Below are positions 6,290-50,867 of a stretch of 64,000 nt of DNA, in pieces. A program made the translations under genes and the position numbers. Within the stretch, counting starts at the first letter, position 1. Every line of letters starts with the position of its first letter. The notes under the pieces were generated by a model. It was not told where the DNA came from, did not search any database, and saw nothing but the letters and a program-made list of their open reading frames with translations. Source of the DNA: Halichondria panicea (lineage: Eukaryota > Porifera > Demospongiae > Suberitida > Halichondriidae); assembly GCF_963675165.1 (NCBI RefSeq), contig NC_087377.1, positions 3,971,899-4,035,898 on the forward strand, in the 5' to 3' direction.

Positions 6290-6790
6290 CTATATGTCAT
6301 ATAAAGTGCATGGTGATGAACTAGTCAGCGCTATAGTCAGTAGAGCTTAAATAATACCATTACCATAATAGTCAGTTCTGTATAGTGATCTAGTGATGTG
6401 CGCAGAATCAAGTGGCTATTCATTTCAATCCCCATTCAAATTTACCTATTCTTTTTATAGCCTAAATATGTAGGTCTAAGACATAAAGAGGTATATGTAT
6501 TTTTGTTCATGAGATCAATCTAGCTCTGATGCATGTATAGTGCTCATTGAAAAAGTATTACAACAGCTCTGTGCTTTTGCAAGATTTATAATAGACTTTA
6601 GCTGATCAGAGGTGTAGACCTAGTGTCACATGACTGCATTCTTTTTTATATAACCCATTTTTTCTTGCCGGCATTTAGTACCTATACTGAAAGCAAAAAC
6701 TAGAAATTACTATATACCAATGATAAGAACATGCACGTATTATATGCTTAAAAATGTACAGTACCAGCATGCATGCAGTATAGGTGTAGT

Positions 6791-20935: not shown

Positions 20936-23371
20936 CTCGAAGCAATGTCAGCAATGATTATAAAGGTTGGTGTAAGATACATGCATGGCTTATAGATCTA
21001 TTATGTAAACTCAGTATACAATGTTATCTCATGCAATATTAATATCCACAGAAGAGGCACATGATATACAGCATAAACATAGGCCTTTGCTGAAGGATCT
21101 GGTGAAGGAACTTGACTCTGTTGTTGACTGGCAACTGCTTATGATCAATGGAAGCAGAGAAGTTTGAAAATGATAAAATAGAGAAAAATTTCCCGAACGA
21201 TATTGATTGACAAAAACAGGAGGCCTTTGACAAGTGGTTGAGGAGGAAACCTGATGCTTGTTGGAAGGATGTTATTGTTGCTCTGTATAAAATTAAAGAG
21301 GATACTCTAGCATTTCGTCTTGCTAAAAAGTACCCCTGCCACTGGAAAGATCCAAGGGTATAGCATGACTTTATAATAGCTATACTTATAGTATGTATAA
21401 TAGGTCCTTGTTTTTATCACATAAACTATAATATAATTATAGGGATCTGTAAATGGGAGCTTTTTATGCACCTCTTATGATGCTCTCATTACCGCCAAGA
21501 AGATGGATGAAATTCATCGAAAATTTCTTCCTCAACTTGCTCCTGGACTAGATTACTACATATTTGAAGATAAATCAGTAGAACTAATGAATGAAAGGTA
21601 AAATTAATGGTATTGCACTTTTTCTGTGTGGTCAACTACCCCCTCCAACCCCTATCCCAACACACAAACACAAACACACACACACAGATCAGCAGCAGAA
21701 AGGACAACTCGATTCTCACGTATCTTACTGAACGTTCCTTTCAAAGTTGGGCTTGAAGCAAGACCAGGAGAACTACTTCCCGCTAATTCAACTAACCAGA
21801 AGTGGATCGAGTCTAAATCGGTTCGAAAAGCAGCATTCAACACCCAGTAAGATGTAAAGGCATGAACTTCGTGTATTATTTTACTTTTTATACTCACACA
21901 CACACACAGATCAGTAGTAGAAAGGACAACTCGATTCTCACGTGTCAAGGTTCCTTGTTCCAAAGGTCTGGAAGATTTCTTTAAGAGCGTTGAAGATAGT
22001 GGCATTAAAGGTGCCTTCAAAGTTGGGCTTGAAGCAAGGTATAACATAAGTACCATTGTAATGATGCATATGTTCCAAGATTATAGGTTTGGAAATATGT
22101 ACTGGAAACTGAAACCGGGAGAACTACTTCCCGCTAATTCAACTAACCAGAAGTGGATCGAGTCTAAATTGGTTCGAAAAGCAGCATTCAACACCCAGTA
22201 AGATGTAAAGGCATGAACTTCGTGTATTATTTTACTTTTTATACTCAGAGTGGAAGAAGCTGATGTTGGGCAACTGTTTGTTGGGAGAGAGCAGCTCGGG
22301 AAAGAGGTCACTAAAATATCTGTGACGTTCAACGTGGAAGGTCAAGATGAAGGGAGATATTCGGCTGCCATTGCTGCATATGAAGATGGTGACATGTTTT
22401 GCCTGGATGCTGTGTACAGAAAACAACCCCTTGAAAACAGAGCAAGATTAAGTATTGCTCTACCAGGACGGTAGCTAAATCACATTATAGCACTCATAGA
22501 TTCTCATTTCTCCTTCCTAACATAGAAAGTATGACTTGAGGATATCTGATTGTTCTGAGTGCATCTTGTTGTCTGAGCACCAAAACAGTATACCCTATCA
22601 GATGGCCCTAACCATTACTAATGCATTGTGCAGACTGTGAGTTGCATGTTCATGAAAAAAATGACAATTTAATAAAATGTTCCACAGTCCTGATAGAAAA
22701 CTTTGTGTCATTCTCCATGGATCATTACCAAATGATGATGTGAGCTCCTCTTGGAAGGTTGAGTACATTCGACAGCGTGTGCAAAGGCAGTACAAATGGA
22801 ATCCTGACAAAAAGTATATGCCTGTATTATTTGTATGTATTGTACGATCAATTATGTAGGTGGATTCTGGTCCGGTATAATGTTGACGTCTTTGAATATG
22901 ATACTAATCAGGATCTTGTCAACACTGCCACAGTGAATGAAAAACAGAACATTAAGTTTGACTACTCAAGAAACGAAGTCGAAGTATGTTGAGAATGTAT
23001 GTGCACTTAGTACTAAATGTAGCGTTAATTGCTTGACAAGCAATGTACAAGTACTTTGTATATGCATGTACATGCAAAAAAGGATACAATAGCCGACCAC
23101 AGTATAATTATAACCATAACCGTGCCATACTATTAGTATAATAATTTCCCGGCAGCTTTGGGGTCAAAAGATATACCCAAGAAATGTCAGTGACACTCAC
23201 CCCTCAAAAGACAAGTACTACTACATGGAAGGGATTGAGGGAGTGCGACTGCCTGGGGGGGAACTCAGGGAGCCATACAATTGGACCACTGAGAAACTGT
23301 TGAAAGATTTCGAGGAGTTTCTGGGAGATGCATTCAAGATTGCTCACATCCTCGATGGGTCACCATACTGA
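20936..23371 (+). pseudogene. Death-domain paralogue D, broken in exon 2
   Basis: Exon blocks: 20936-20965, 21052-21357, 21443-21597, 21688-21846 (exons 4 and 5 fused), 21910-22038, 22087-22197, 22249-22470, 22526-22636, 22688-22813, 22860-22983, 23156-23371. Exon 2, the Death-domain exon, has lost bases near 21148 (gatcaatggaag) and has CGA changed to TGA at about 21207, so the domain cannot be read through. Exons 4-5 exist twice. Exons 6-10 keep open frames and splice signals (VEEADVGQLF, CLDAVYRKQP, YIRQRVQ, stop TGA 23369-23371). A product lacking the Death domain would need a new start, so I call it a pseudogene. Confidence 0.75.
21772..22248 (+). repeat. direct repeat of exon 5 and intron in copy D
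   Basis: About 127 bases at 21772-21897 recur at about 22121-22247 with very few differences, offset by 349 bases. They cover the end of exon 5 and the intron before exon 6. An exon 4 start is repeated as well (21688 and 21910). This is a recent tandem duplication followed by deletion of the intervening intron in the first unit. Confidence 0.75.
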
Positions 23372-24398
23372 ATTGTGCTAAGAGCATTGTTTTATACTGT
23401 TTTAGCTGTAGTATTATGCACCATTAATAACGTTTATTCACATAGCCATAGCCTTGTCCCCAACCTATATATAGCGCTCCATTAGACAAATTAAACGTCG
23501 GCCTGTTAACGAGGCTATATATTATAATAATATTATAATTATAACTCTGTGCATAACGTTGCTGAGAGTTATTTGTATCGTATATGAAGCTAATTTATAG
23601 TTCACTTATGTCGACGAAAACTTGTCTTTCTGCATGTCTGAGACACTTTTGATATGCATGCTGTATAGTGTAGGGAGTGGCCTGGGTGACTAGTTTGTTG
23701 GATTAGGGTTAGTGCTAGCCTCGAGACCAGGCCGATTAAAATGGATTCGAGGCTAGGTTAGTGCATGTCAACCGTTTTTGTCACAATAAGCACAATAGCG
23801 CTGCGAGGTTGTTTTCCTTGCGCTTTATACGTATGATTAGTAATCCCTGAGGGCTTCTAAATCCTATAAGCATTTGTTCTAACATGTTTTAGCTCTGGCG
23901 ATTGTAGCATAATTGATTCTTTTTGGAGACAAAACTATAACATCAATGTTATACTCATCCATCAGCTATAATTATACTACTAAGAATACCACTCTACTAT
24001 GTTTAATAATTACCGTGTCAACGTTACGTTAAGCGGAGTACATCTGTGCTTATTAATTTTGACATCATGCAAATATAAACAATTGCGACTTTTGCATCCA
24101 CAAAAGATGTGTTGTTGACAGTTTGCGCTTGTTTGTATTTTCAGTTTGAGCAAAACGGTATATCCTAATTTTAAACATGATAATGCAATACTCTCATAAT
24201 AAATTATTGTTCTCGTGGGAAATATTTGAGGGAAGATAAAAATTAAATTTACAAGGAAAAAATGTCAATCACGTCTTGTCATGGTAGCCATTGGTAGGAC
24301 GTGTAGACAGGTAAACACTATACAGACCCTACTACGGTTGTTGATCAATTAGTGGAGTGTTGGCATAACATAAACCTCAAGAGGTTTTGCACAGAGCG
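23372..24398. other. spacer between copy D and the kinesin-ankyrin gene
   Basis: No gene is supported. It includes the empty site for the 389-bp element (about 23671-23705). It also holds an imperfect inverted repeat around 23713-23763 (gctagcctcga ... tcgaggctagg). The distal promoter of the kinesin-ankyrin gene is expected here. Confidence 0.5.
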
Positions 24399-24468: not shown

Positions 24469-27400
24469 ATGGCGGTGAGATCCTCTTCTGGTCGGAAGGA
24501 TGCTGCTAAAGGGGACAACTTTAGAGTGGCTGTTAGAGTGAGGCCGCTCATAGCTAGAGAGATCAAGAGCAATACGGGAGAGGTGAGTTTCTTGCTAGTG
24601 AGCTGAGAGACAAACAACTCAGTGCCATTTCAATAAATTCTGTAGTGCATATCTGGCTACATGTAGAGTAACAGGCTGCCCTTAGCATATATATACTGCT
24701 CCAGCTATCTACTGTGCTGGAAAATGTTGACTATAGTTGTATGGTAAGATAGTGGGAAAGAGTGGGCGGATAGTAGGGAAGAAAGGGGAGACAGTGGGCG
24801 GGGAGATATTGGAAAGAAAGGGGAGAGGGCTGCAGATGGTAGGGAAGAGAGGGGGATAGTGAGCAAGAAAGAGGTAGAGTGTCTAACCAGTTGTTATAGC
24901 CATATTATAGTTAATTGTTGGCCATTGTATACGTACATAATGCCACCACTAAGTATCACTTTCCCTCCCCATGCAGTGTGTCCTAGTGAGCCCTGAGGGA
25001 AATGCAGTGACTGTTAATAAGCCAGAGTCGAGAAGGAGACAGTCACAAATTGGAATCGATGATTTCGGAGAGCTAGTTCGATCGGACACGAACAACACTC
25101 ACAATTTCTTCTACGATATCGTCTTCTCCCCAAAGTGAGTAATTGGCTTTACTACTTGAGTGGAGTTAATGCTATAAAAACAGTGCCAGAGGCGTAGCCA
25201 GGGGGGTGCTAGGGGTGCTTGAGCACCCCCAATCAGCCCGAGTCAAGTATACAAATCACCACAGAGAAATGTATCTGATTATCCAGCTGAGCACCCTTCT
25301 CTTCCAGATGCTGCAGTTAGGCTGTTAGCTAGCTAGTATAGGCAAGGAAAACGATTCAGTCTCTAAACTGTGAGCTATTCTCTATAAACTAGTTCTCTTT
25401 TGTGATTGTGGCCAGCTAGATTTAGCCACGCCGCGCCCAACTTGGCAGATAAGTTAATTATGATGTCATTAATAATAGGTGTGGCTTCCGGTCAACTAAA
25501 TTTCTTTATGACATCACCCCTTTCTCCAAAATCCTCGTTACGCCCCTGAGTGCACTTAGTTCAACTTATTAAGCTTCTTAGTTTATAGGCACGGAGTGAA
25601 CTTTTAAATACAAGGCCTTTGTTGCTATGTGGTCGAGAATTTTGTCCGGCTAATGTTGTAGATAGCCATTTAGCGTACAGTTTTTATATAGAAATGTACA
25701 TGCATGCAGTCAATTACGTTAACATCTATCTCAGAATTTCCCTTATCAGTTGTGTATTTTATTTTCTCTTCCCAGTTCAACACAAGACCAGATATTTGGT
25801 GTGTGTGCTATGGAGATTGTTGAGAGTGTTCTACAAGGTTACAATGGCAGCCTGATCGCTAGTGGACAAACAGGTTAGTAGCGGAGGCCATGTGTGTGGA
25901 TCACTAGCCATTGCTATGGCAAGCAAACAAATATACACGTTTAATATTCATTGAGAGCATTTGACTATCAATAATGTAGACAGAAATGATATTCATTAGA
26001 AGCAGTTATTTCTGGAATGTACACACAATTAGGATGAAATCAGTTCAACCCAACCAATTTCATTTTGTTTTTGAGCTCGAGTTTAGGCTCATTGACTTCT
26101 GGTTCTAATCTTGCAAGTATATAATTATAACCTGTTTTTCTCCACTCATGCACTCACACAGGATCTGGTAAGACCTTCACCATAGAGGGAGGTCATGAGG
26201 AGATGACTAGAGGCATCATCCCAAGAGCTACTGAACTCATCTTTAAGCGTATCCACAAGTAAACCTATTAAGCTTGTCTGTTAGTAGAAGTATAATTAGT
26301 ATAACTGCATGCATACAGGCCATCTTTTGTGCAGTATAATTACATCGCAAATGTATATTAATAAGCTATAAAATATATATATAGCGATTAATCTTAACAC
26401 TGAGTACAGACATTGAGAACTATCCCAGTAAAAAGGACAGGTTTCTAGTGAGGACTTCGTATATGGAGATCTACAATGAGAAGCTGTTGGACCTCATGGT
26501 ATACACGTCTGTTTGTGATTATGTCACTACATATACGATTTTACTTATACAGCTATTCTTTGCATGTACGCATGTGCCTGCATGGTTGCTTTCTCGAGCC
26601 ATTATTATTATTACTGTACAAGCATATACACATGAAATGAGCTCGATAAAGCAGGCACATACATCTGAGTACGATTACCGCCAGTACTAAAATACGCCTG
26701 AGTCTCGTTTTAAACATCAGTCAAACATAATTATCGCCAAAAGGTTTTAATTCATCCACCCTCTCTACAGGCTCCCAGTCGTGACAATCTTCGTATTCGT
26801 GAGGATGGAGTGGGCGGAGTTTTTGTGGAGAACCTATCAGAGCACGTTGTGAGGAACACGGCTGGTATCATGTCACTACTGAGGGAGGGGGCTAGACTCC
26901 GGACCACCGCTACTACCAAGATGAACAAGGTGAAACCTCCACTGTATAAGACTGCACTATAATTATCGTATGAGTTATATCAGCCACGTTTTTCGAGTGC
27001 GAATTGCTTAATTAACTCACAATCGAAAAAAATCACAAAGAGTGAGCATGCGCATGCAATCTCCAATGGAAATTCTAAATGCAACCAACAGTTGCAATTG
27101 AGTCGCATTCGAAACCTTATTATGGGATTAGTGCCGGGATTCACGGAGTAACAGCGATGGCAAGGCCTTCCAATTATTGAGGCAAAGCGATTATCAGTGC
27201 TATTAATCCTATGAACGACTGCGAGTAATCGTATTATGAGATCGGCAATTTTCATTAGCCGTGTGGAGATATACCAAACATTCCCCTTACTTTGAGAATA
27301 ATACAAATTTCTGTACAATAATAGTGTATCATAATATTTAATTCCAATTCAGTAGAAATTTGCGTACAAATAATGTTTACGTGTAGTATACTAACGTCTT

Positions 27401-30400
27401 AATGTGTCTCAAAAGTATCCATACTGTATGTAGTACACATGTGCAGTATATAGCTAGCTATAATGAGTGGTTGATACATACACATATACAAAACTGAATA
27501 TTTATAATTATTACTAGCTATCAACTATACACTACATTTCTTTTTTAAATAATCGGAAATAAAGCTCAAAATGATAATACTCACCATATATATGAACAAC
27601 GCTATGATAATACACGTCCAAACGAATACTATAGCGAACACGTAAAGGTTGGCAAGAATTATGAATATACCAGCTCCAAATACGAATTGAGACCACTCAA
27701 TAGACAGCGCTTGGATATCTATGCTCAAGAAAAATAAGAGCCCCTTTCCATCAAACTGGACCCCTGCACAAAGGAAGAATGCAACAACAAGCGTAGTGTA
27801 GGCGAAGCATATAAGGACAACAAATGGACTCTTAAAGGGAAGGAGAATTTTTATACACACGTTCACTTTGTGCAAATCATAACATTTTTCATCTAATGAA
27901 TTAAAACCTTCGTCTTCTTTCGTGTCTTCTTTTTTTATTATTGCTAAAACAAATCCCATAAGTGCGGGAAACTCCTGAAGCCAATATTTTGTCACCACGA
28001 AATAAGTAAAATAGCCAAATAATGGTAGGAAGCTCATCACAATCATCATGTACCACAGTCGTGGGCTAACATACACACCGACATCGTCTACACTTGTTCC
28101 GCTAGTCTGATTAAATACACCACCCATTTCATCAGTGCTTCTAATTACTGTTCCGCTGGTCGGATTGACCCCAGGGCGATTTTGATGATCGTAACGAATG
28201 CGGCTTGAAATTATCACAAACATTAAAACTTGGGATATCATTTGAAATATGACGTGGACAAGGAAAAAATAAGAGTAACCAATAACTGTTGCTTTATAGT
28301 TTTTAGAATTCTGAACCGTTGCTTTATAGTTTTGAAATTTTTTGTCTTTAAAGTGTTTTTTGAGTCTCATTATAGCAGCTATAACCATGTACAGTCGTAT
28401 TAGAAAAACAGTTGCAATAAATATCATTGAATCCACTGCTAGTAGAACAAGTCCGATAATAGTAGTAGCCATGGTATCTACGTTTCCATCAGATAGGCTA
28501 ACCTCAAAAAAGTTGCATATCAAAAGTGGAAACAAAATAATCTCAGTGATAAGTAGTCTAAAGAGATCAAAGGGGTGATTCTCTTTTTTTGGTTTCGTTT
28601 TCTGGCAACTTCTGTAAAATACAACAAAACTATCGATGATCACTAGCCCTGTGGAGATTATGGAAAGGACTAGATGGATAATATTGAATAATTCATTATT
28701 TCCTGCTGCAAAAATAGCGATAGAAAAGCTCAAATTTAGTAATGCGAAAATTAGCTGTAAAATCACCCAAACCATTCGAAGTGCATTACCTAGTAGTGAG
28801 AACAAGATGTTTTTCACTTCCTTACGTCCTTCACGAGAGGCTTCTTTCAACTTTGTATCTGAAATGAACTGATTTTTATGGAAAAGGTTTCCGATCTTAA
28901 TCGTGCATGAACAATCATATGCTAAACAGCAACAATTCATACATTTCTCAAAACAGGAGTCCACCTCCACCTCAACATTACATTCGACTTCTTCTGAATC
29001 TTCTACTCTCGCTTCGATTGCTAGCGGTTGTTCTCTAACTGCTGCATGACCAACTCCTAAGGGGACACTAGTAACAGCAATCTCTTCAAATACAGTTATT
29101 TCTCTACGAATCCTGCGCACTGTACACTGCGCTTGAGTAGCTGGGCCCAAACCTGCTGTGTTATTCTGTGGTACAGATATGTGACCTTGCACCATTTGAA
29201 CTGATTCTTTCCTAGCAGTAAAAGCAAATGCGTTTGCGCTAGGTGCACTAGGATTGTGAGGTTGTTTTACATTGTGTTGTGGAGCTGAGTAGGCTATAGG
29301 AGGAGCTTGCTGCGAATGTGAGTGATGATAAGGTACCATTTTCTGACTATTTTCAAAGGATGGGTTAGTCGCATGTGGCAAATTGTTACTTTTGATACAA
29401 GCATCTCTGTCATAGTTACTCTTGTATGGAAATGATGGTTGCATGCAGCTTACTTGTTGTGTTTGGGCGGGTACCGCTTGGTTGGGTGGTCGTAGTGACT
29501 GTTTCCGGGGTGGTACTGGTGGTTGTTGTGGAACAGCATGGCCGCCTGGTCTCGGTGAACAGTCTTCCGAATTCGTCGAATACTGCACCTCATTGTAATA
29601 CGGTGAAGGATTATCGTAAGCCATTGCTCTTGGTTCAAAACTTGATAACTGTAGAAATGTCCTTCAATAAAATTTAATGAGACACACTTATTTTTATATT
29701 TTCGTGGTTTTTCACAGCTTTTATTGGTACCTGATACGAATTGAAAGCTAATTTTCTTACCATGCACTTATTGTTTGTGTTGTGATATTTTACAAAGTTG
29801 TCAGTTGGGATGTAGTTTGTTTGTCAGAAGCTACGTAAACCTTCACAACGGATACACCTGTTGTTTCATCACTTGTTTGCATCAACTGTTAAATTTCTAA
29901 TTACCTCACACAAATAACATGCAATTTGTGAATGGTCAATCGGTAGTTACTATAGCTTTTCTTGGTTGCTCTATATAATTATTATTGTTCACAGTTCACA
30001 ACTATTTATTTTTCTTATTATTGCAGGAGAGCAGTCGTAGTCATGCGGTATTCACGATCATAGTGGAGCATGCAGAGCACCAGGCCGACTCCGGGGGTAG
30101 CGTCGTCACTATCGGGAAACTAAGACTGGTCGATCTAGCCGGATCAGAGAGGTATGTGTGAGGAGGGGGGAGGGGGGTTGACAAGCATTATAGCACCTTA
30201 GCTGTACAAGATTACTGTTTTATTACTCTAACCGATTACCCACTATAACAATTTGCTGTTGTTCTATTAATCACCACAAACCCACCACTTTATGTTTCCA
30301 TGGAAATATTTTTGGGTATTTTGTAGCTTGGTCATTCACCTACACATTGGTATCAGCACCATTTCTTAGAATCGATTTTTATATTTAAGTACAGCTACTC

Positions 30401-33400
30401 ACACATTTGTGGTAATCTACTCTCTAAGCTGGATGCACTGTATGTAGCTGTGGTGTACGCCAGCTAGGAGTAAGATTCATCTATACTAACACTCAATCAA
30501 TTAATGCCATCACAAGGTTGGACATAGATGCTCAGAGCAAGCAGCAAGAAGAAACTAAGAATATCAACGTCTCACTCCACACATTCGGGAAGGTGAGCGA
30601 GCATGCATGCAGTTTGTAGGAGGTACTAGCTATACCGTACTACTAGAATGTTTTGCGAGCATCACATATTTGCAAATTTTGCGAGGGTTGATCAATTCGC
30701 AACAATAAAATCCGCAAAACCTATAAATACACACGATCCTTGCCAGAACGCAATAGTTATATTGAAAAGGGTCAATTTTTTGCTGATTTGGCTCATTCGC
30801 AAAAGTTGTTCACCCACAAAATATTCTAGTAATACGGTATAGCTTTCTGCTGTAACTGGAGTTATTTGCATCCATTAATGCGGTATCCCCACACTAATTT
30901 TAAGTATATACCTCCCACACACACACACACATCCCCCGTGCCACCCCACACCCACACCCCACACACCTCTTAATTTCCCTGGTCCCACTCCCCCCACACC
31001 CTCACACTTCTCCCGGCCCCCACCTCCATTCACACACCCTCACAGGTTGTTACTGCCCTCACGACTCCCGGTGTTAAGTATGTCCCGTACAGAGACTCTA
31101 AACTCACACGAATACTGCAAGACTGCCTCGGGGGTAACTGTAAAACAACGCTCATTGCCACGGTAACTGCATCTTCGTCGTGCTATACGGAGTCTATGAA
31201 CACACTCAAATTTGCAAAGAGGTGTGTGCATGCATGGCCTTCCTATTTCTTCGTGTGTGGTACAAATAATTATGTGTCTATATCCCCATCACTTTGTTAC
31301 CTGTGATTATACATAGATTCCACTATACAGTAGATCATCTCTACAATTAAATGTCGATTCCACGCTCATTTTAGCAATGATAAACTTTTAAAGTAGTTAG
31401 TGCGACATGTAGTGTATTGCAGCTGTAGTATACTGTACGTTAACACACTTCATGTTAATTTCAGGGCCAAGAACATCAAGAACACTGCTCTGGTGAACAA
31501 AGATGTCTCCCAGAAAGCTCTCCTCTCAGCCTACCAGAAAGAGATACACAAGCTCAAGGAGCAGTTGGAACAGAGGTCAGCCACACAACTCAATTGTTTA
31601 GACAAGTAACCAGCCAAACCATTTTTGCTTACACGCATGCACGTACTGGGGTGTGCCCACACTGGTGGGTGGTGGTAGATGTACGAGACAAAAATCACCA
31701 CCTCTTAGGCTAAGTTCACCACATGAAAGAGGCGTATGCATGTGCGTATTGAATCGAAAATCCTGAGCACATATCTGCCTGTCATTTAAAACAACACTGC
31801 TATGCTTTCCCCACCCCTCCATTTCAATAATAATAGTAACTGCATGATAATCAATGGCCCACAGAGGTGATGGTTCTGGACGATTGGAGATTGAGAAACT
31901 GGAGAAAGAAAAGATTGAAGCTGAAAAAGAGAAGGTATACGTATAATTATATATGTTTAATCACAGTAGTTTAAGTGCATGTGACCCCTCATGCAATTTT
32001 GAGAGCGCTCTAGTACATGTAGCTCCTCTAGTTAATGCATAATAATACTCATTGCATATGACGTTGTAGCAAGAAATATTTTTAGAGCTGATTCAGAATT
32101 TTATTCACTGTTTCTTAGGAGGAGGTGTTGTCACAGTTACGAGCCCACCAGAGACGAGTATCCGAGGCCGAGAGTGATAGGGAGAAACTGTTACAAAAAG
32201 TCTCCCATCTTGAGGAAATGGTGAAAACGACCGAAAGCAATTGCTAGTTTAATATAGGCCTTTTAAAGAGCTACCTTTAGTTTTGTAATTGGATATGAAG
32301 TTGTCGACCACATAGATATACCAAAAAGCTCAAAACACTTTGCAAGAATGATTTATTTTAAGGCTTAAAAATACATTGTGTTGTTTAGATACCCACTCAC
32401 TATACATGCAGGTACTGTACAGTGGTGAGGAGGTCACTGAAACATCAGAGTTTAAACAAGCTCTGCAAAAGGTTGGCCAGATCATTATACAGTATAGCGG
32501 GTTATATTCGGGAATGTATTAAATTGAGGTGGTGCCTATGGTAGAAATTTTCGTATATTGAGCATTATACAAAAATTAAAACTACGAAATTATTTTACCG
32601 CATAGATTCAACGTTACTATAAGTGTGTTTTTACATTAAACTCCAGGAGCATGCTCGACTCAAAAGGGAAACAGAGTCGACCATGGAACAGAGACTGAGG
32701 GAACTGGAAGATGAGAAGATAAGGTTAGTGATTCTAGCTATAGGTCACTACTTAATTATAGGCCACTGTGTGTGTACACAGGGAATGTGTTAAGCATTGC
32801 GAGGTAGTGCCTTTGTATTATTATTCGTGTGAGGTGATGATATAAAAAGAAGGAACTGGGTGGCTTGACTGACATACAAGCATCGCTAGCTGTGTAGGAT
32901 AAAATACATACGTGTTTGTATTGAGATAGATATGTATGTACTGGGAATGCATGTGCTTGTTTTAGAATAGTGTTTACACAGAGGGAATGTGTTTGGTAGT
33001 GTTTGGTAACAATTGTTGGAACAAAACATATAATAGAGACAGATTGCTGGTAAGTTCGTACAGTTCGCGATACATCTGTTAAAAGGACATAGGTTTGAAA
33101 AGTACCACGAATTTGAGTGATTTGCTAAAGTGTTCTGTGAAGTGACAAGTAGACGAAGTAGCGCATTCCAAATTAAGCTTTATTTTACTATATACGGTTG
33201 AAATAGAAGTGACGGGTAGTACGTATTGTAGTGAGACACACTGTGTACAAGCGTTGGAAATTATTGAATGAGTTTTTCTACCTGAAGCGTTCTGGAGAAT
33301 TGTGTTTGGTAATAATTGTGGTATTTTCGCTTGACCTCACAGATTACAGACTGAGAGAGAAGAGATTCAGAAACAAAAAGAATACTTTGCCAAAATGAGG

Positions 33401-36400
33401 ACAGAGTTTCAACCAGACGGAGGGAAGGTGAGAATAAAGTGCAATTGTAAGAGTTAATGATTATAACACAAGATCTGTATCTGGTTTTACTTGCATGAAA
33501 TTATTCACATGCAGGATGAAACTGATGGTGAAGCAAGTACTGAAGGTACACATACAATGTATTATATTAGTTGATGGATGATGTGACTGTACTGTAGTAT
33601 ACGGTTCCATTTTAATTTATGATCTGTGTTCTTGTTTTGCATCAGTTCCTACCAGACCTGTCAGAAGGATTAACAGTGCAACCAAACCAATAACACGTAA
33701 GCCAATTAATATCCCTGCTATAAATTATACCCTGCGTGTTGTCACTTTATTTGGTGTATCCCAAATTGGCTTCACTCCACTATTGCAATAGCAGGAGTAT
33801 ACCTGGCCCACTGGTCGGTAGTGATCGATACTATATAGGGCCTAAGCCTAGTTTCTTAAGCAAATTTGTCTGATTGAGTATTGGAAATAGCCACCACCTC
33901 AAAAAGTCTGCATGGGCACACATTATCGTCTATGTGAATGTCATTAAATACGGAATCTTCCCTCTCATGCATGCAGCGCCCAGTTCCCTGTCCACCCGCC
34001 CTCCTCCCTCTGGTGCACATATTCCCCCGTCCCTCCTCTCCACTGTACCACGAAGGTTCGCCAGTGCCGATGTGCTCTCCGCCTCTGGAAGGTACGTCAG
34101 TTACGTAGTGACGTTAACAAATCAACCCACCTTGTATTGCATGGGTCCTGATTGGAAACTTAGAAACTTAACGCTTGTGAGAGGGTTAGAGTATACTACT
34201 TTGTGATGGGTATCGTTGTGGGAAAAGTCATAGAGAGTTGGTGCTTCTTGATAGGTACACAATATATCGCAGTTAGCTTTTATTCTGGGGTGGCCGTTAG
34301 TAGCAATTTACTATACTTTCTCCTGCTCAACAGCTTTCGTGCGGGTATGCCAGGGCAGGGATGGGCCCACTCTACACGACCACATCTCCACACACCACCC
34401 AACCAGCAGACTATTCATCTGGTGAGTGATCCTGTAACTTTGAGTGGTCCTATATAGCTTTTGATTCTATAGTGGCCAATATTGTTTACTGTACAATTGT
34501 ATAGCTCTGTATATCAAGTTAGGAGGACGTATAATTATCTAAGTTTGTTTTGATTGACAGAACTTCTTTATTCACAGGATAATAGTTCTACTGAGGCTTT
34601 GAGAGATTACGCATCAGCCCTGGCCCATCCCACCTCCGGCATCCCCTGTCAGGTGACCCACCCATACAAACACACACTGCAGTCATTTGACTGACTCCAA
34701 GAACTTTCCCAAACTATAATTATAATTATAGAGATGTGTTTTATGAGAACACTGTTCGTTTGCACACACACATTCTTTGTAAGCACCAACAATAATGTTT
34801 TTTGCACTTTTTACGGATACAGGAGCTCCACTCTGGTGTGCGCATCTTCACTGGCTCTGAGTGTGTGAAGTGGTTCCTCAAGAACATGGTGGGCGTCACC
34901 ACTGTACAAGCCGCTCAGGTGAAGGGGGGGTGGTAATAATTTAGAAGGGGAGGGGTTACAGTGGAACCACTTTATAAAACAGACACATTGTATAGCTAAC
35001 AAGTGTTGGTCATTGTATAGAGAGATGGCCTTTTATACACTTTAGTGACAGTGCATGTGTTCCCCATACAGGACGTGGGACAGAGATTGATGGACCTCAA
35101 TGTGTTCATGGAGATACAAGGTATGCAATTAGCAGGCACCTTAAGTAGTGAGAGAGAAAGTTTCAAGTCAAGATAGTCTAAAATTAATATAGAATCCAGT
35201 ATTTAGGTGTTGTGTATATTTGGAGAACAAGCATCTGGCCGTTGTGGTCTACGTAGCTTCTATTTGGGACTTGGTTGCCTTCATGGCCTTTTTTCTTATA
35301 GCCAAGGATTAAATTTTAATGAATACTCAATCCACTTTTAATTAGGAGGCTTGTAATTTACCCCACCTACCCACTCTCTCCACAGGCCGGAAACAATTTG
35401 TTGTGTCGGACTCTGTCTACTACCAGTTCAGTGCGGCCAGACTAACAGGACCACCTCGGAGTGCCCCCACACTAACCAGGTACAGGAGCGGGGGTTAAGG
35501 GGGAAGGGGAGAGTTAGGGCAGCAACTGTACTTACAGTGGAACAACGATGATAGGGAACAAAATAGAAGTGGGATATTTGTACACAAACTGTTCACTTGG
35601 GACCTGTCCTTTAATTGCAGTTGGTCTTTTTCATAGTATAGCCACTATAAGATGGCCGGTTCCACTGTACTCAAACTGACTGTACATGTATAGTACAAAC
35701 GATACCCTAATGACCTCTATAATTATTGTACTACATACCTGCTTAATATTCGTAATGCTTGCTCTATGCAGACCTCACTCAATGGCTGGGGGTATCAATT
35801 ACCCCTCCCACCCACCCCCCTCAAGGGGGTCACTAGGCAGTCTCACTGGGAAATCCTCCTTCCCACAGCGGGCAACTCTACACAGCACCAGTGGATTGTC
35901 AAGGTGAAAAAGTGCATGCTACAATGATAGCCTGGTGATTTCTCCTAACCTATTATTAGCTATATAATTTTGTGATGGGATAACTAGAGATAAGAATGTC
36001 CAATTACAAAACTAGTATAAGATGCTTTTAGCAGCTCTTTGAAAGGCTATCAATGGTTACATGCCGATTTATTTTCAGACCCTAATTTATACTCCCCAAG
36101 AGTTCAACTATAACTTTAGAGTGACTTTTTTTAAAAATGATCGAGCTTTTTTGGCGGCTACATTGTGATAGTTTAGTTGTGTCAATGTTATTACTAACCC
36201 CCGTGCCCCTCCTACTCCAGCCAATGGGATTCTCAGTCCACGGCCTCGCTGGCTACCTCGGTGGCCTCCCTCGATATCGGAGGAGATCTGTTAGAACACT
36301 TTGGACTGTCTGAACACTTTCCCACTGAGCTACACGTCTCCGCCCTCTATGGTAAATGGGAGGGAGTACTATAGCGATTGCTTTCAGACCATGAAATTAA

Positions 36401-37181
36401 TATTTTAACCCGGCTATTTTCCTCTCCCTCTCTCACTCACTCCACAGGTGATCGCTCTAGACTGAAGGTGTTAGTGAAAGAGCTAAGTGTGGATTGTTTA
36501 GATACTGCCGGCCACACCCCCCTCATGTACGCTGCCATTGGGAAACAAGCGAAGGTGAAATGTACATGCATACATCCATTGCATGTGGTATTTTCTGAAT
36601 CCAATTAAGATTTCTGTTTGCTATAGCAGTTTCAGTGTAGTTGCTGATTGCTATTTCTTAATTTTCCGCATAATTTATAATAATTATATGTGCTCATGAT
36701 AATATTTATTATCGAAGCTATTTATAATAATTATGAATACTTTTGCAGTGTTGTCTCCAGCTGATTCGACTAGGTGCTGGCGTGAACGCTGCCAATCAAA
36801 CTGGCCAGACGGCATTGCTATTGGCCACTGCCCTGGATTATGAGGACATCATAAAGCTACTCCTAAAGTAAGTTACTTGAACTTAGTCCCAGCAGCCCAT
36901 GTACGTACGTTGATTTCCTTAGATAAGCTTCACATGATTTCATTATTACCTTTCCAATTAATAATAATTGTGTTCTCTTGTTTCCATAGAAACGGTGCAC
37001 TGACCCATTTCGTTGAAGAGTCTGGACAGACTGTGTTCCATCTAACAGCCAAGAGCTCTAACCCAAAGTGAGAATAACTATACACGTGCTAGTATAGGAG
37101 TGAAGAGGTTAATTGTCATGTGTTTGGCCTTATTGTAAGCTATGATTCCTGACTGACTACATGTTAGTAACACTAATACCG

Positions 37182-37228
<47 letters not shown>

Positions 37229-38926
37229 CCTCCCCTCAATCCACCCTCACGCCCCCTCACTCCATCCACTCAGATGTTTGGAGTATCTGTGTAAGTACTC
37301 CACCGAGAATCATGGTATCAGTGATAGGGACCATCACTATCGCACTCCCCTACACATGGCAGTCATCACCGATCACCCCGGCAATGTGCAGAAACTACTA
37401 GACGCTAAGGTGTGAATCAAATGCTTATCTCCACATAATTAGAGTCCTAGAATTTATTTTTCAAGTACGCAGCTACTTCCCCCGCACCTGTATTTATTTC
37501 TCCATGTACTCCATATTTTTCTCTCTTTGATTAATTGTTTGCACATAACAAGTTGCTACATTATTAAACCTCTCCCACACACACACACATACATGCACAT
37601 GCTGCAGGCTGATCTGGGTATCAGTGATGTTGATGGTAGAACTGCTCTTCACTATTCAGTGCTGCAAAGGAAACTATCCTGTGCCCATGTCATCGTGGAC
37701 ACTGTGGTAAGCTATAATAGCAGTACCCCTCTCTCTCTCTATGTTATTGTCTGTTTTTAAATGGGGGGGTAGATGTGTGTACGTGTACAAGTCAGTGCAT
37801 AGCTTTGGATCTTCACATTGAACGCCCTAGAGTTAAGTCTTAACGTTTATAAGAGAGCAACCTATAGGAGCTCCAGAAAACAACTTAAAATTGAACGATC
37901 GATCTAAGTAGAATTAAGTTATGTGTATAATTATGTGACCCCTCATGGTATGCTATAATAAACTATACATGTACTTCATTTCGTATCTATTGATAGTCAC
38001 TTTCCCCCTCCCCATCCTATGTAGCCTAACGATGTGAACCTGGTGGACACAGTTGGATGGAGTGCACTACACGTAGCCTGTAATGATAACAATCTTGAGT
38101 TTGTCTCACTCCTAGCAGCCAGTCCAGGGTGAGTGTCTATACTGTACATTCAATGCTTTGTCCTGAAACCACTTCACACATGCACACTATTAATCATTGC
38201 ACTTTGTTTACCAGGGTATAAAGTTTTGCCTTTTCGTTGATTAAGTATGTACCGTAATATCGCGTGCATGCATGCGCTAGAAAGGAGTTAAAATCCGGGA
38301 AATTCTTTCCAATGGTCTTTTTGCAAAAGTTTATACCCTCGAAAATAGCTACATGTATCCTATGCTGTTTACTTGACCGCAAATACCATTGTTTAAACAT
38401 ACATAATAATTATCGATTGCTACTATTGTGCATGCACATTAATTGTCTTTCTATAGTTGTGATCTCAACCTCAAGGACAAGGAGGGATGCACTCCACTGC
38501 ACATTGCTGTCAAGAGGAACTGCCCTCAGGCCATTAAGATACTGGTTGCCAATGGTGCCAACACTAGCTTCAAGGACAACTCTGGCAAGACTGCTCTACA
38601 GCATAGCATGAAAAAGGTATGCCTAAAACAGACCTATATATACAAGATAGGCTTTGACACAAATAATTGGTGAACCTTTATAGACTGATTACACAGTAAA
38701 AACACTTATGTTATATGAGATGCATCATCGTATTTTAGTGTCATTTTAAGAGTCATTTTTACATTAAATTTCGCGTTTCATTTATGTTACTGTAACGAAT
38801 GTGTTTTTACTGTGTAGTACATACATACACACATCTGTGACGGCTGGTGTAGTAATAATAATTCCCTCTTCTCTGTAGGGCCTAACTGAGTGTATCCAGG
38901 TGCTAAGCTCAAGTGTGTCCAGTTGA
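24469..38926 (+). CDS. kinesin motor - coiled coil - DEP - ankyrin repeat protein (33 exons, 1104 aa)
   Basis: Exons: 24469-24582, 24977-25134, 25776-25873, 26162-26258, 26405-26498, 26771-26929, 30027-30151, 30517-30592, 31046-31221, 31465-31575, 31865-31934, 32119-32220, 32412-32471, 32647-32723, 33343-33427, 33515-33545, 33646-33696, 33977-34091, 34334-34421, 34578-34652, 34823-34918, 35072-35120, 35386-35479, 35772-35903, 36221-36351, 36448-36554, 36749-36867, 36990-37067, 37274-37409, 37608-37706, 38025-38128, 38457-38616, 38879-38926. All are GT-AG and in phase. The N-terminal motor (about 18-370) has FRVAVRVRP, the P-loop [24 protein letters not shown] and [13 protein letters not shown] charged coiled coil follows (about 385-530), then a Pro/Ser linker, a DEP domain (about 632-730; [11 protein letters not shown]) and some seven ankyrin-type repeats (about 822-1090; [42 protein letters not shown]). 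A plus-end-directed cargo motor is the family expectation. The subfamily was not resolved. Confidence 0.88.
25187..25548. mobile_element. TIR element in kinesin-ankyrin intron 2
   Basis: It begins CAGAGGCGTAGCCAGG and ends with the near reverse complement (cgttacgcccctg). AGTGC flanks both sides. It matches the element at 13873-14306 in the pseudogene, so the insertion is ancestral to both copies. Confidence 0.65.
27525..29624 (-). CDS. intronless multi-pass membrane protein nested in kinesin-ankyrin intron 6 (699 aa)
   Basis: A single 699-codon frame runs antisense within host intron 26930-30026 and is a paralogue of 16310-18397. The N-terminal 220 residues are nearly identical to the first copy ([25 protein letters not shown]). 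The cysteine cluster [17 protein letters not shown] is kept. The membrane half has diverged more, with small indels, but keeps the same hydrophobic plan ([51 protein letters not shown]). No signal peptide is visible; the proline-rich N-terminus is presumably cytoplasmic. The family is unknown to me. Retention of the frame in both copies with amino-acid divergence points to selection on the protein. Confidence 0.85.
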   Translation of the reverse strand: MAYDNPSPYYNEVQYSTNSEDCSPRPGGHAVPQQPPVPPRKQSLRPPNQAVPAQTQQVSCMQPSFPYKSNYDRDACIKSNNLPHATNPSFENSQKMVPYHHSHSQQAPPIAYSAPQHNVKQPHNPSAPSANAFAFTARKESVQMVQGHISVPQNNTAGLGPATQAQCTVRRIRREITVFEEIAVTSVPLGVGHAAVREQPLAIEARVEDSEEVECNVEVEVDSCFEKCMNCCCLAYDCSCTIKIGNLFHKNQFISDTKLKEASREGRKEVKNILFSLLGNALRMVWVILQLIFALLNLSFSIAIFAAGNNELFNIIHLVLSIISTGLVIIDSFVVFYRSCQKTKPKKENHPFDLFRLLITEIILFPLLICNFFEVSLSDGNVDTMATTIIGLVLLAVDSMIFIATVFLIRLYMVIAAIMRLKKHFKDKKFQNYKATVQNSKNYKATVIGYSYFFLVHVIFQMISQVLMFVIISSRIRYDHQNRPGVNPTSGTVIRSTDEMGGVFNQTSGTSVDDVGVYVSPRLWYMMIVMSFLPLFGYFTYFVVTKYWLQEFPALMGFVLAIIKKEDTKEDEGFNSLDEKCYDLHKVNVCIKILLPFKSPFVVLICFAYTTLVVAFFLCAGVQFDGKGLLFFLSIDIQALSIEWSQFVFGAGIFIILANLYVFAIVFVWTCIIIALFIYMVSIIILSFISDYLKKKCSV
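29689..29703 (-). promoter_or_regulatory. possible TATA box of second nested gene
   Basis: The minus strand reads AAAATATAAAAATAA about 65-80 bases before the ATG at 29624, in the same place as the motif at 18458-18471 of the paralogue. Confidence 0.35.
30635..30837. mobile_element. TA-flanked MITE in kinesin-ankyrin intron 8
   Basis: Terminal repeats start CCGTACTACTAGAATGTTTTG-like on the left and end with the near-exact reverse complement (caaaatattctagtaatacgg). TA flanks both sides. The same intron of the pseudogene (near 19300) lacks it and reads straight across (gaataggagctttctac), giving an empty site. The TA target suggests a Tc1/mariner-type origin. Confidence 0.75.
35535..35667. 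mobile_element. mariner-type MITE (CAGTGGAAC ends) in kinesin-ankyrin intron 23
   Basis: The element runs from CAGTGGAAC to GTTCCACTG with TA on both sides (35533-35534, 35668-35669), 133 bases long. The same kind of ends occurs at 50180-50345 and 62563-62723. No coding frame is present. Confidence 0.65.
37185..37227 (+). repeat. (AC)n microsatellite in kinesin-ankyrin intron 28
   Basis: About 21 AC dinucleotides run without interruption, a short way upstream of the exon 29 acceptor. Confidence 0.95.
38692..38814. mobile_element. MITE with CACAGTAAAAACAC ends, last intron of kinesin-ankyrin gene
   Basis: The 14-base ends CACAGTAAAAACAC and GTGTTTTTACTGTG are perfect inverted repeats flanked by TA, 123 bases in all. 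Family members occur at 41186-41323 and (truncated) 51454-51579. Confidence 0.8.
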
Positions 38927-40610
38927 GAACAGTAGACTATTCTATTTCATATTTTGTACATACCTTTACAGAAATGCATTTTTTTACACATTCAAAGAAG
39001 TGTCAACCTGTATTTAATTAGATTTTATAGAGTTTATCTGTTTGTTTGGGCGTTATGCTTGATCAGCAAGTTTACCTTGCGGTCTTGCACATGTGCATTG
39101 TGTGCAAGTAACTGTAGTGTGATTGACAAATTCCCTGAATGGACCAGCTATAAGCATTACCGCTTACATGTATTACTGTGCTCTACAAAATTGAGTGCAT
39201 GTATTTGTAATAGTGTAACCTTACATAATTATTGTAACAACAGTTTATGCTACCTTTCAATATGCACAATGTTTTATAATTATATTATACACAATTGCAA
39301 CGTATGGTTACCATCTGCTATAGACCCAATAGCTAGAGTTGCTATACCCCAATTAACCTTTTACCATGCTGCACGCTTCGATTCACTATAAAGGCCTACG
39401 TAACTGCATGTTATAATAAGCCATCTATAATTATTATTTGCTTGAAAATTAAATAATACTATTGCATAATTATAGAGCCAAATAATTAATTTTTGAAGCA
39501 TATAATTTTCGCGGATTGACCTGAAACCTCGAAAAATGTGAGACCTCTCTACTAATAGGGGGGGTATTGTCATTTGAATCTCTATAATAAGGTGACATAT
39601 TTTCACAGGTATAATTATTTGTTTGCGATTTCACTGTTTAGCTCATTTTTGCTGGCATTAATTTCTGCTAAAGTTGTGACATTAATCTTATTCATAGCGT
39701 TTCACAAATTAATCTTTGAGTACACATTTTTGCGATTTTACTCTCATTCGCAGAAATAGCAGAAACTAATACCAGCAATAAAATCCGGAAAAGAGCAATC
39801 CGGGTACATGTATGTGTAGGTTTATGCTTACCTTGCAAATGAACAGCAATGTTTTTACACTCTTGATCTATAGAGTGTACTAATTATTGGTTGCAATCTG
39901 TTATGTAACTACACACATCCAAGTCGTTATTGAATAATTATGACCCATCAGGTGATTGAGTTGTACCCTTTACCACGCACTTTCACTAAGGGCTCAGGCA
40001 GTGACGTATAGGAAGCAATCTCTCTATGGGGGCTCTAGTTTTTTGAAAAAGTACGGCTATCTACATAGTGCAGCTTAATAATTAAGTCATCTCAGCCTCG
40101 AAAGATGGAGCCCAAGTTCAGTTGCTATATATACCAAGCATGGGTAGACAGCATTGCTGTGTAATAGTGACGTGGCTGCTTGCTTACTGTCTGACTATTG
40201 TGCTTGTCCTTTGCAATTTTTATAGCGTTTATACTTCTAAGGCAGGCTGCTCTGCACCTTACATTGTCCCAACCTTTTGTTTTAAGTTTATGCTATATCT
40301 TGCAATAATAATTATATGCACAATGTTTACAAACTGCTTTTGTTTCTACATAATGTATAATGGTGGTTATCTATACACATTAGGGTATCTTCAGTTTGTA
40401 CCTTTTACCGCTGTGTGTCTCATGTCCATTTATGGTAGTGTGCAGCTAGTTTGAGAGCAGTATAAAGCCACCATGCAATAGGGCACTGTGTTATATATAG
40501 TTGTAGCTGCTCAACTGTAAGCTTCACAGTTCTCATATCAGAAGTACAATTAATTTGCAAGTTTTTTGTTGCAGCTAGACAGACCCAAGTTCAGCTGCTA
40601 TATAGCAAGC
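38927..40610. other. spacer with decayed first-exon copy
   Basis: Most of it shows no coding signal. At 40140-40215 there is a degenerate duplicate of the signal-peptide exon found at 40611 (atgggtagacagcattgctg and following), frameshifted by inserted bases. The flank around 39130-39330 is repeated at 49010-49560, showing that the spacer was duplicated with the downstream gene. Confidence 0.65.
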
Positions 40611-43600
40611 ATGGATAGACAGCATTGCTGTGTAATAGTGGCTGCTTGCTTACTGTCTGTTTTTGCCCTTTGTGTGGGCCAAGCTCCAATAGCTATCTGT
40701 GAAGAGGATTTTTCCGATAACTTAACGTGTGAGACAATAGCGGATAGGAGGCGCTGCAGCTTCCCCAGAAGTGAACTTTGCAACGATCAAATGTTGTGTG
40801 ATGATGAACGTGATGAAGGGGTAACCACTGGAACTGGATTGGACTGTGAGATTTGTATTGGCTAAAACATTCATATTTCTGCATTGCCTATAGCAATTGA
40901 GAGTATACATTGTCGTGCATAATTATACATTTTACTGCAGCTACATTAAAATTACAGTGAATCATTACTTTTGTTGTATTGCAGGTGATGGTAGTCTCAC
41001 TGGTCGCAAGGCTGCTGACAATGGCAAAGTGGAGCCTGGATTTCTGTGTTCTAATGGCACTATCCTGGACCTGGTACAACTGTGTGATGGCATGGCCGAC
41101 TGTGAGGGTGGAGATGATGAGACACACCCTCTCTGTGCAAGTAAGCCTTTTATTGGCTAGTATATTATGCACTTGTGCATGCATACACAGCAAAAACACT
41201 GAGATGCATCATCGTATTTTAGTGTTAAAATGACAGAAATTTATGTTGTTTTTACATGAAATTTCAAAAGATGTGTTTCATTTAACAAGTTTTATGTTAC
41301 TGTAATGAATGTGTTTTTACTGTATCAGAATAAAATTGTTAAGACTCTGCCAATATAAATGTTAGATTAAAATCTACATTGAAAGTACACGAGAAAAGTT
41401 ACTCAGAGGAGGTATATTGTGTGACTTACCTGCATGCAACTTACTTACATGTGATAGCATCCCGTTGTTAAGCAAAGTAATTTTGTTTGTGCACTAGTAT
41501 CTAGACATTGTTTTGTCGGTGTCCAGAAGCCCTCAGCCACTTGTAGTATCACCTTCGCTACGCTCGGGATATTAATTAATCAGTGCTTTGGGCTTCTAAA
41601 TCCCATAGACCTTCCAAAACAGTGTCTATTTATAACTTTTATACAGACAAGTGTCTGTTTCCCTACTATGGAGGATGTTTTCACACAAGAGAGTGCCATT
41701 CCACGGCTAGAGAAGCAACTTGCGGATTATGTCGTCCAGGGTTCGCAAGAGATCCTAGGAATTATGAAACTGGCGAATGTGTTGGTATGTGCTTAATTTG
41801 TAATGTGCATTACATTGACGTATACCTGCATGTTAAATGTAAACTATAAGGTTGGAATCATTATTAGCTACTTTAATTTGTGCATGGTATGAAAGTTTTG
41901 CTATTCACATGCAGAGGCTCGTTTCAGCTTCGAACGTACAGGGTACAGTCTGTGCGAAAATGAGCAAATAGCAGTTGATATGAGACTTGAGACAACTGGA
42001 GTTCTTGATCAGAGAGTGGTATTTGATGTCAGGGTAATTGGTGGAACTGCTGGAGGTATATATATGTCAATTATTCTGAGTCATAAAAGGATTTCACCAT
42101 TTTCACAGTTGGTAATGACTTCAAATTTTCAACAAGTCAGCTTGTATTTGATAGATTTTCTGGTGGAGGAACAAGTAGAGGAGTAGTTATTAGGGCTGTA
42201 CTCGACAGTGTTTCTGAAGGCAGTGAAACTCTTATCTTAGAAGCTTCATCTGATGATAAGTCGCTCACTACTAGTACTCGTGTTACAATCAATGAGTGCT
42301 CTTCTAGGGCAGGTAGGCTTGATGAAATTATACTGCTAATTATTTTAGAAATGATAAAAATTGCTAATTTAATTGTGACCGTACAGAAAACCTGTTCACT
42401 GTACAATATTCAAGTGCTTTTGAAAGTGCTGGTTTCTTAACGACAAATGTACAATTGGCCAGTGGAGTTGGTATTCTGACAGAGGATCTCATAATTAACA
42501 TATCCACCAGCTCTGGATCTGCGATAGGTAAGAAGTATATCACAAGTCTCATCTATACTTATTGTATACTGATAACACCTTTCACTATTCACAGGCAACA
42601 TTGACTATCAAGAGACACAGTTGACTCTCACCTTTCCTAGCGGAAGCCGAGGAGGAGATAGGATTCCATTTTTAATCTCCTTAATTGATGATAACATTGC
42701 TGAACGACGAGAAAGTTTCGTTATTAGAGCTTCAGCAGGCGGAAATGGAATTGGGATATACTCACGATCATCATACACTCGAAGTTTATTCATTAGAGAC
42801 AACGATCGTGAGTTGTTAATTCAGTCGATTTCTGAATGACTGTGGACCATATGTGTTGTTTTAGATTTTGGTAAATGTGTATTGTAAGTTTTACCCTGTT
42901 CAACTGATTTCAGGGTTCATAGTTGAGTTTGAGCACCCAAGTTACACTGTACGAGAAGGAGCGAGTGTGGAAGTCTGTCTGGTCAACACCACTAGTCCAG
43001 AAAGGATCCATAGCTTCACAGTGCAGTTCTACACTTCATATGACTGTGATACTTCATCCACTATTACAGTAATAGATGATGCAACAGGTATGATAATTAT
43101 TATCACATGCACAACAATTTAATTAAACGTTTATAAGGTTTTGTTCTTCCATACAGCTGACTTGGACTATGAAGCAGTGTACAGGGAAGGTGATGTCATA
43201 TTCCCACCTGACACTAATCGAGCATGCACGATTATCAACACTTACCACGATAACTTGGAGGAAGGAGTGGAAAAGTTCATTGTAACAGCGGTACGTAGCA
43301 GTGGAGTTGGACAGGCCTCTCAGTCTTCTCCACACACCACTGATATCTTTATTGTGAATGTGAATGGTAGGTGCATGCATCTGACTAAGAGAAATGATTA
43401 AAAATTATTACGCATGCAGTGGATCCAGTGACAGTATCAATTGAAGAGGCATTCTATTCTATTACTCAACCTGAAGATTCTGTGGAAATATGCATAATTG
43501 CTTCTGAAGGCAGCCTTGATGAAACAATTGCTCTAAACCTACTAACACAATGTATAATTATATCATCCATGCAGCCATATTTTCATGTTTTACCCTACAG

Positions 43601-46600: not shown

Positions 46601-47146
46601 CGTTCAGCAGCTGAATGTGTGGCAATGGGAAACCGAGATGAGAGTCAGTTTATGGACCGTGGTGTCCGTGTGGAACAAGGTCTGTCGTGTCCATGCTCAG
46701 TAGAACAAGCATTCCAAGATCGAAGATATATCCACGCTGCTGCTTATCTGGCTGAGATCACTGGTGACGAAAGATTCCTCTCCAGGAACTGTTTTGTACA
46801 AGTGTTTAGGCCTCTCAGAGCTAATAGAGGTGTTCACATGTGCTGCTACAGCACAAGGTAAAGAGTATGTATGCATATAATTATAGGCGTGTAATTAATA
46901 TGCTTTTTCAGTGAGGAGTCATATGGAGCTCTGTTAGGGTCACCATTCCAAAGTGAAGCAAGTTCTCCATTACGATTCCATCCCTACACTGAGCGTGATG
47001 ACTATTTGAAATACGACTACCACTTTCAAAGGAGCTGTTGCTTCGGTGAATCAGACAACATGTGCCCAACTTACACCAACCAGCGCAGAGCCGACGAATG
47101 CAAGAGCTACACACCCTCAGAGTTTGGTAAGTTCTTATTTAAGTAA
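40611..47146 (+). CDS. secreted mosaic protein, copy 1: LDLa/Calx-beta/CCP/IgGFc-binding/EGF/NIDO/AMOP, 3'-truncated
   Basis: Exons: 40611-40845, 40985-41140, 41647-41784, 41915-42055, 42109-42312, 42387-42527, 42595-42807, 42914-43087, 43157-43366, 43420-43551, 43601-43789, 43841-44032, 44087-45313, 45357-45482, 45540-45665, 45733-45872, 45919-46227, 46307-46857, 46912-47126. All phases agree over about 1606 residues. Order: signal peptide ([16 protein letters not shown]), LDLa-like cysteine modules, a cysteine-rich module, four Calx-beta-like domains, a CCP/sushi domain, an IgGFc-binding-type domain in one 1.2-kb exon, two EGF domains (DIDECAV), NIDO and AMOP. The VWD and later exons of the full-length paralogue at 50868-63142 are absent. 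Reading through the last donor adds six residues and a TAA at 47144-47146, so a shortened secreted protein is possible. Otherwise this is a 3'-truncated duplicate. Confidence 0.75.
41186..41323. mobile_element. MITE with CACAGCAAAAACAC ends in intron 2 of mosaic gene copy 1
   Basis: Same family as 38692-38814. The left end is CACAGCAAAAACAC and the right end GTGTTTTTACTG, with TA at the edges. The internal sequence (gatgcatcatcgtattttagtg) is shared. Confidence 0.75.
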
Positions 47147-50420: not shown

Positions 50421-50867
50421 TAAGGCTGCTCTGCAACATTTTTTTGTCACTATTGTGCAATTCACCTTTTGTTTAAGTTTATGCTACCTTGCAATAATTA
50501 TGCACAATGTTTAACAAATCGCTTTTGTTTTCTACACAATGTTGTACTAATGCATGGTTACCACCTGCTCTGCACAAGCACGGTGATGTATGTCATTAGG
50601 GTATGTTTATTATTAGATCCATTATAGTTGAGGTTTGAACCCTTTTATTGTAAGTCATATATTTAGCTCATGTCCATTTATAGTAGCGTGCAGTGGCCCT
50701 GACAGTATATAAGAGGCCACCAACTAGCTATTGTTTTATAATTATTGCTGCTCAAACTGTAAGCTTCACAGCTCTCATCTCTTCGCTCTAAAAAGTATAC
50801 AAATTTGGGGTTTGTTTTTGGTTGCAGCTAGACAGACCCAAATTCAGCTGCTATAATTGTAGCAAGC

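Follow-up and report, generated by a model that had tools for sequence, protein, structure and literature searches.

Several kinesins carry recognizable modules in their tails: KIF1 and KIF13 proteins have FHA, PH or CAP-Gly domains, KIF16B has a PX domain and KIF21 has WD40 repeats, with the kinesin-3 FHA domain placed after the neck. To our knowledge, the tails of kinesin-2 proteins are without DEP domains or ankyrin repeats, and inversin, whose ankyrin array is considered below, has neither a motor nor a DEP domain. Ankyrin arrays bind proteins, and Dishevelled is a DEP protein. PMC6310461 describes DEP domains as commonly targeting signalling proteins to membranes, and PMC2867816 counts 105 architectures among 1624 kinesins, most of them present in one organism. 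Organism-specific kinesin tails are therefore common, and the gene described here is less surprising than a preliminary description of this DNA had suggested. We found no kinesin with both a DEP domain and ankyrin repeats among the literature records listed, including passages of PMC10304595 and PMC3536430; the list of 105 architectures lies in a supplement, where a kinesin-ankyrin entry is possible.

The window analysed here is the whole stretch of 64,000 nucleotides from Halichondria panicea (contig NC_087377.1, positions 3,971,899 to 4,035,898), and all window coordinates count from its first letter. A single open frame of 33 exons was rebuilt on the forward strand (24469-38926), running from an ATG at 24469 to a TGA at 38924-38926 and encoding 1096 residues. 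All 32 introns were GT-AG, exon phases were compatible and the coding length was a multiple of three. The acceptor of exon 5 must be 26429, since use of the AG lying 19 bases further upstream would disrupt the frame. The chain of 33 phase-compatible exons proposed in the preliminary description was thus recovered in full, with 32/32 GT-AG introns and 1096 amino acids to the stop. The predicted features of the window are as follows.

24469..38926, + strand: complete coding region, 33 exons, 1096 aa (rebuilt gene model)
24535..31478, + strand: kinesin motor domain, aa 23-362, exons 1-10, retaining intact motifs of the P-loop, switch I and switch II (PF00225, 343 bits)
31465..33427, + strand: neck and charged, possibly coiled-coil stretch, approximately aa 358-526, exons 10-15 (translation and codon test; weak heptad signal)
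33515..34421, + strand: proline-rich linker, exons 16-19, of which exon 17 is the least certain (codon and chain tests)
34578..35430, + strand: DEP domain, aa 655-709 by Pfam, the first helix probably coming from exon 20, aa 622 (Pfam and PDB matches)
35430..36325, + strand: Ser/Pro/Thr-rich linker, exons 23-25, approximately aa 710-804 (translation)
36325..38908, + strand: nine ankyrin repeats, aa 805-1091, exons 25-33 (Pfam; related tail on contig C15)
13169..20038, + strand: broken, incomplete tandem duplicate of exons 1-10, comprising the motor alone (alignment)
27525..29663, - strand: open frame of 712 codons, lying antisense within kinesin intron 6 and belonging to a separate gene (ORF)

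The motor matched the entire PF00225 profile (positions 1-327 of 327) over residues 23-362 with 343 bits against a cut-off of 29.3. Its translation contained GQTGSGKT, NKESSRSH and DLAGSE, which correspond to the consensus of the kinesin P-loop, switch I and switch II, so that all three motifs reported beforehand were present in the rebuilt protein. A kinesin-type neck (AKNIKN...VNKD) followed this N-terminal motor. With motifs and neck as in active plus-end motors, the protein is likely a plus-end motor. Dimerisation could be mediated by the charged stretch that follows the neck; heptad power there reached p = 0.04 for residues 400-452 and ranged from 0.11 to 0.78 in the four other coil stretches tested. 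The order of motor, DEP and ankyrin repeats given in the preliminary description was borne out by Pfam and by the single open chain, and heptad periodicity gave its coiled coil weak support. In the predicted gene, the kinesin motor, the DEP domain and the ankyrin repeats are thus joined in one open, phase-compatible exon chain.

The DEP domain (PF00610) scored 40.6 bits in the whole protein and 44.6 bits when scanned alone, above a cut-off of 32.7, and covered profile positions 18-72 of 72. Its best PDB match (E 5e-7) was a chain holding two copies of DEPDC5 and took in the preceding alahptsgi segment, followed by Iml1 at E 0.0026. The GATOR1 proteins DEPDC5 and Iml1 thus supply the best PDB sequence matches, but each DEPDC5 copy contributed only 15 bits, single-copy DEPDC5 chains reached E values of about 0.04, and the window protein contained no further GATOR1 domain. 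The 13 PDB matches included no Dishevelled chain. Comparison with 11 stretches covering the genome's 14 DEP matches yielded one marginal match (L036, E 8e-4, 43 aa), too little to place the domain within its family. In the ankyrin tail, Pfam gave 149.7 bits for Ank_2 and 112.6 bits for Ank, above the curated cut-offs, with repeats spanning approximately residues 805-1091. We counted nine repeats by eye over residues 805-1091, instead of the roughly seven initially described. The domain matches secure the tail exons. Many very long single-exon ankyrin arrays, with open frames of up to 4555 codons, were also seen elsewhere in the genome (contig C12 at 1.0-2.1 Mb, and contig C2 at 2.63 and 3.36-3.38 Mb).

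The class of the motor was examined through similarity scores and phylogeny. Among the best 60 of 135 PDB matches, OSM-3 ranked first at 264 bits and was followed by KIF13B, KIF4, KIF5A and KIF3B at 248-236 bits, KIF13B being second among the matches listed with 248 bits. Among the genome's own motors, the closest were the kinesin-2 loci L010 (234 bits) and L032 (226 bits), then L006 (222 bits). The class labels of L018 (KIF15-like), L005, L032, L006, L011 and L027 are presumed from general family features. Kinesin-2 (OSM-3/KIF17, KIF3) therefore gives the window motor its best scores both in the PDB and within the genome, and the helix after the neck resembles that of OSM-3 (ALLREYQEEIARLKSMV). 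As a control, the OSM-3/KIF17-like motor L010 scored 442 bits against OSM-3 and 403 against KIF3B, vs at most 286 against non-kinesin-2 motors among the matches listed. A tree was built from the window motor, OSM-3, KIF13B and 31 of the 35 kinesin loci of the genome, the other four having fewer than 180 joined residues; those of its motors that were joined from open frames carry small errors at exon ends. The genome has separate kinesin-2 genes (L010, L005 and L032), and these formed a clade with OSM-3 (95.7/97) that excluded the window motor. The window motor also fell outside the supported kinesin-3 clade, and its sister was the presumed KIF15-like locus L018 with low support (74.8/65). Constraint tests were run with 2000 replicates (the program advises 10,000) on quick constraint trees. 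Forcing the motor into kinesin-2 gave p-AU 0.046 and p-SH 0.09, the SH test not rejecting the placement, so that the exclusion from kinesin-2 is moderate; the values were p-AU 0.15 for kinesin-3, which was not rejected, and p-AU 0.28 for a grouping with L018. A Pfam scan at E ≤ 1 detected no FHA domain in the window protein. Assignment to kinesin-2 from the top PDB match to OSM-3 was not adopted, the L010 control and the tree standing against it at this moderate level of exclusion. The view that no standard animal kinesin class has this domain order agrees with scores and tree insofar as the motor fits no tested class clearly, but the kinesin-3 and L018 constraints were not rejected. The motor-domain phylogeny proposed earlier likewise set it outside the kinesin-2 and kinesin-3 clades, with L018 as a weakly supported nearest neighbour. 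The window gene resembles KIF1/13, KIF16B and KIF21 in placing a tail domain of putative adaptor- or lipid-binding type behind an N-terminal motor, but its DEP and ankyrin modules differ from their tail domains. Separately, one open exon (L013, C4:7587765-7588706; 71 bits in a joined model) encoded a highly divergent kinesin-like motor whose P-loop looked altered.

A second locus with the same overall order was found on contig C15. Using the first ankyrin repeats as query, we recovered an exon with 43 % identity lying downstream of, and on the same strand as, kinesin motor matches; at 55 bits, vs 52 for other arrays among the 150 candidates scored out of 821, this single-exon match held a slight lead. 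The locus (L001, approximately 300.5-304.5 kb, minus strand) comprised a motor, a proline-rich linker and ankyrin repeats. Its tail, joined by hand from open-frame pieces, shared 38 % identity with the window tail over 289 residues and scored 178 bits in register vs 77 in the next register. With the full-length query, C15 was absent among the 42 candidates scored out of 883, and the best other ankyrin array listed reached 83 bits. The C15 motor was strongly diverged (Pfam, 99.8 bits), having kept the P-loop pattern and, as judged by eye, lost canonical switch I and the switch II glutamate. No DEP domain was detected there by Pfam in three open frames or by tblastn over 9 kb. An in-frame chain can be drawn from the motor through the linker to the first ankyrin exon, and the linker exon holds a methionine, so a two-gene reading is possible at this locus too. 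The C15 locus therefore shares the motor-first, ankyrin-last order of the window gene and differs from it by its divergent motor, its proline-rich linker and the lack of a detected DEP domain. The tree did not group the window and C15 motors, but their grouping was not rejected (p-AU 0.10). The occurrence of a motor with a related ankyrin array at two unlinked loci points most readily to duplication of an old motor-ankyrin gene, and the combination of motor and ankyrin tail is probably older than the split of the two predicted genes.

The weak link of the gene model is the stretch between the coil and the DEP domain, exons 16-19, and exon 17 is doubtful. In a codon test of exons 11-24, p was at most 0.006 for exons 11-15, 18 and 20-24, vs 0.016 for exon 16, 0.014 for exon 19 and 0.124 for exon 17; these values are counts of open segments whose score is at least equal, and openness contributes much to them. 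Exon chains bridging the donor of exon 15 and the acceptor of exon 20 were also scored, using splice models from 27 other introns. The best chain scored 19.8, compared with a maximum of 6.2 among 400 non-coding replacements that overlap within a 9.4 kb pool and hence are not independent. Among 400 Markov-1 sequences (95th percentile, 8.7), none reached 19.8 and two reached 12.5, the score of the earlier reader's exon chain under a slightly different earlier scoring model. Under the chain-test model, the original 33-exon chain scored 11.9; leaving out exon 17 raised this to 16.1 and kept the frame. A smaller null (n=60) had a 90th percentile of 6.0 and a maximum of 19.2, its pool holding unannotated stretches with open frames as well as the tested introns themselves. 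Since the best-scoring chain kept exons 16 and 19, left out exon 17 and split exon 18, the linker as listed above is provisional.

These uncertainties bear on whether the chain instead represents two adjacent genes on the same strand, the first a kinesin that stops beyond the coil and the second a DEP-ankyrin gene whose start lies in exon 18 or 19. An AATAAA lies at 33433, just 3' of exon 15, read-through of exon 15 meets a stop at approximately 33457, and a methionine in exon 19 could serve as a start; together with the weaker codon signal of exons 16, 17 and 19, these features are compatible with such a boundary. The gap between the two genes would be approximately 0.9 kb, and spacing nearby is compact, with 1.1 kb upstream and at least 1.2 kb downstream to the neighbouring repeated stretches. 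Against this, the linker chain outscored all 400 non-coding and nearly all 400 Markov replacements, and exons 16 and 20 both begin in phase 0, so that the frame would be kept even if exon 15 were spliced directly to exon 20. The unlinked C15 locus also has a kinesin motor leading to a related ankyrin tail on the same strand, which makes a chance juxtaposition of two genes unlikely. We therefore regard two separate genes as an unlikely account of the region, and favour the single predicted gene.

Two further explanations concern the identity of the tail and the condition of the gene. The ankyrin tail might be an inversin (NPHP2)-type array, making the protein a ciliary Wnt-pathway motor that fuses partners which act together elsewhere. 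Over its whole length the tail aligned with roughly the first nine repeats of human inversin at 128 bits, vs at most 82 in other registers, and inversin interacts with Dishevelled according to PMC5713242. The inversin sequence used was, however, a provisional one, and the match was not clearly better than that of other arrays: arrays of this genome scored comparably, at up to 125 bits, and all 19 matches listed for inversin repeats 2-5 were such arrays. With phmmer, the best single register reached 114 bits for this inversin sequence, vs 95 for ankyrin-1, in target sets that differ. The tree, in which the motor was not grouped with kinesin-2, and the lack of Dishevelled among the PDB matches to the DEP domain speak against this identification. 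Since other arrays do equally well, inversin is kept as a rival reading of the array, and we consider an inversin-type motor very unlikely.

Decay of the window gene, as part of a local duplication with an already broken motor copy, was assessed from the upstream copy of exons 1-10. This copy aligned from the sixth codon, carried insertions in exons 6 and 7 and a changed P-loop glycine, and lacked the tail, the duplication ending within intron 10. With 885 ungapped bases compared, exon identity was 97.7 %; these bases came from 8 of the 10 exons, exon 1 being partial and exons 6 and 7 left out because of gaps. The five introns compared shared 61-92 % identity, three of the alignments having long gaps. 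Because the copy keeps exons better than introns, exons 1-10 are independently supported. The broken state of the copy is what might suggest decay, but the downstream gene has all 33 exons open with splice sites and motifs intact, and the pair gave a dN of 0.016, a dS of 0.045 and a dN/dS of 0.35 over the same 8 of 10 motor exons. An inactive or decaying window gene is accordingly the least credible of these alternatives, and we can see hardly any chance of it. The preferred reading remains one complete gene.

The surroundings of the gene contain further duplicated sequence. The antisense frame in intron 6 (27525-29663) has a duplicate at 16310-18397 (-) in the copied intron, which is also open, the two proteins being 71 % identical. 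By eye, this gene encodes a probable multi-pass membrane protein of approximately 700 aa; its frame was without Pfam or NCBIfam match, and relatives were seen in long open frames on C12 (4.80-4.94 Mb) and C9. A tandem repeat (1-1600, 4145-6294, 7807-8736 with 10637-11810, and 21080-23375) flanks both kinesin copies and probably represents a gene family; two of its open frames were scanned and had no Pfam match. Downstream, a tandem duplication of approximately 7 kb was present at 40419-47132 and 50667-57738. In the first copy, two open frames matched Calx-beta below the cut-off and Sushi just above it, which suggests that the duplication may encode an extracellular protein.

In sum, the locus is probably one gene encoding an N-terminal kinesin of no clear tested class, with a tail of a DEP domain and nine ankyrin repeats that would make it a self-contained cargo carrier. 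The motor would move toward the plus ends of microtubules and would probably be dimeric. Judging from their families, the DEP domain may anchor the tail at a membrane, directly or through a membrane-bound partner; the ankyrin array, held on flexible linkers, may bind a protein cargo or adaptor. The tail could thus sense a membrane or receptor partner, with the motor serving as a self-contained cargo carrier. Given DEP membrane targeting and ankyrin protein binding, a membrane- or receptor-tethered cargo carrier would be the most likely role. A bolder scenario holds that an early ankyrin-tailed kinesin class, outside the families tested, split into an active, DEP-bearing motor and the C15 pseudo-motor with a cargo-binding ankyrin tail of like kind, and that the two could pair or compete for one cargo with the pseudo-motor as regulator, much as Vik1 acts for Kar3; we rate this as improbable.

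As predicted from one genome at the sequence level, the gene would represent a new tail architecture within the known kinesin superfamily. A search of viral contigs gave nine pattern matches and no confirmed relatives. A single motor chain would here combine a possible membrane or receptor sensor, the DEP domain, with a large protein-binding array, and the second locus, with its degenerate motor and related tail, offers a natural comparison. If expressed as predicted, the gene would let one ask whether kinesin tails gained signalling domains for adaptor-free choice of cargo.
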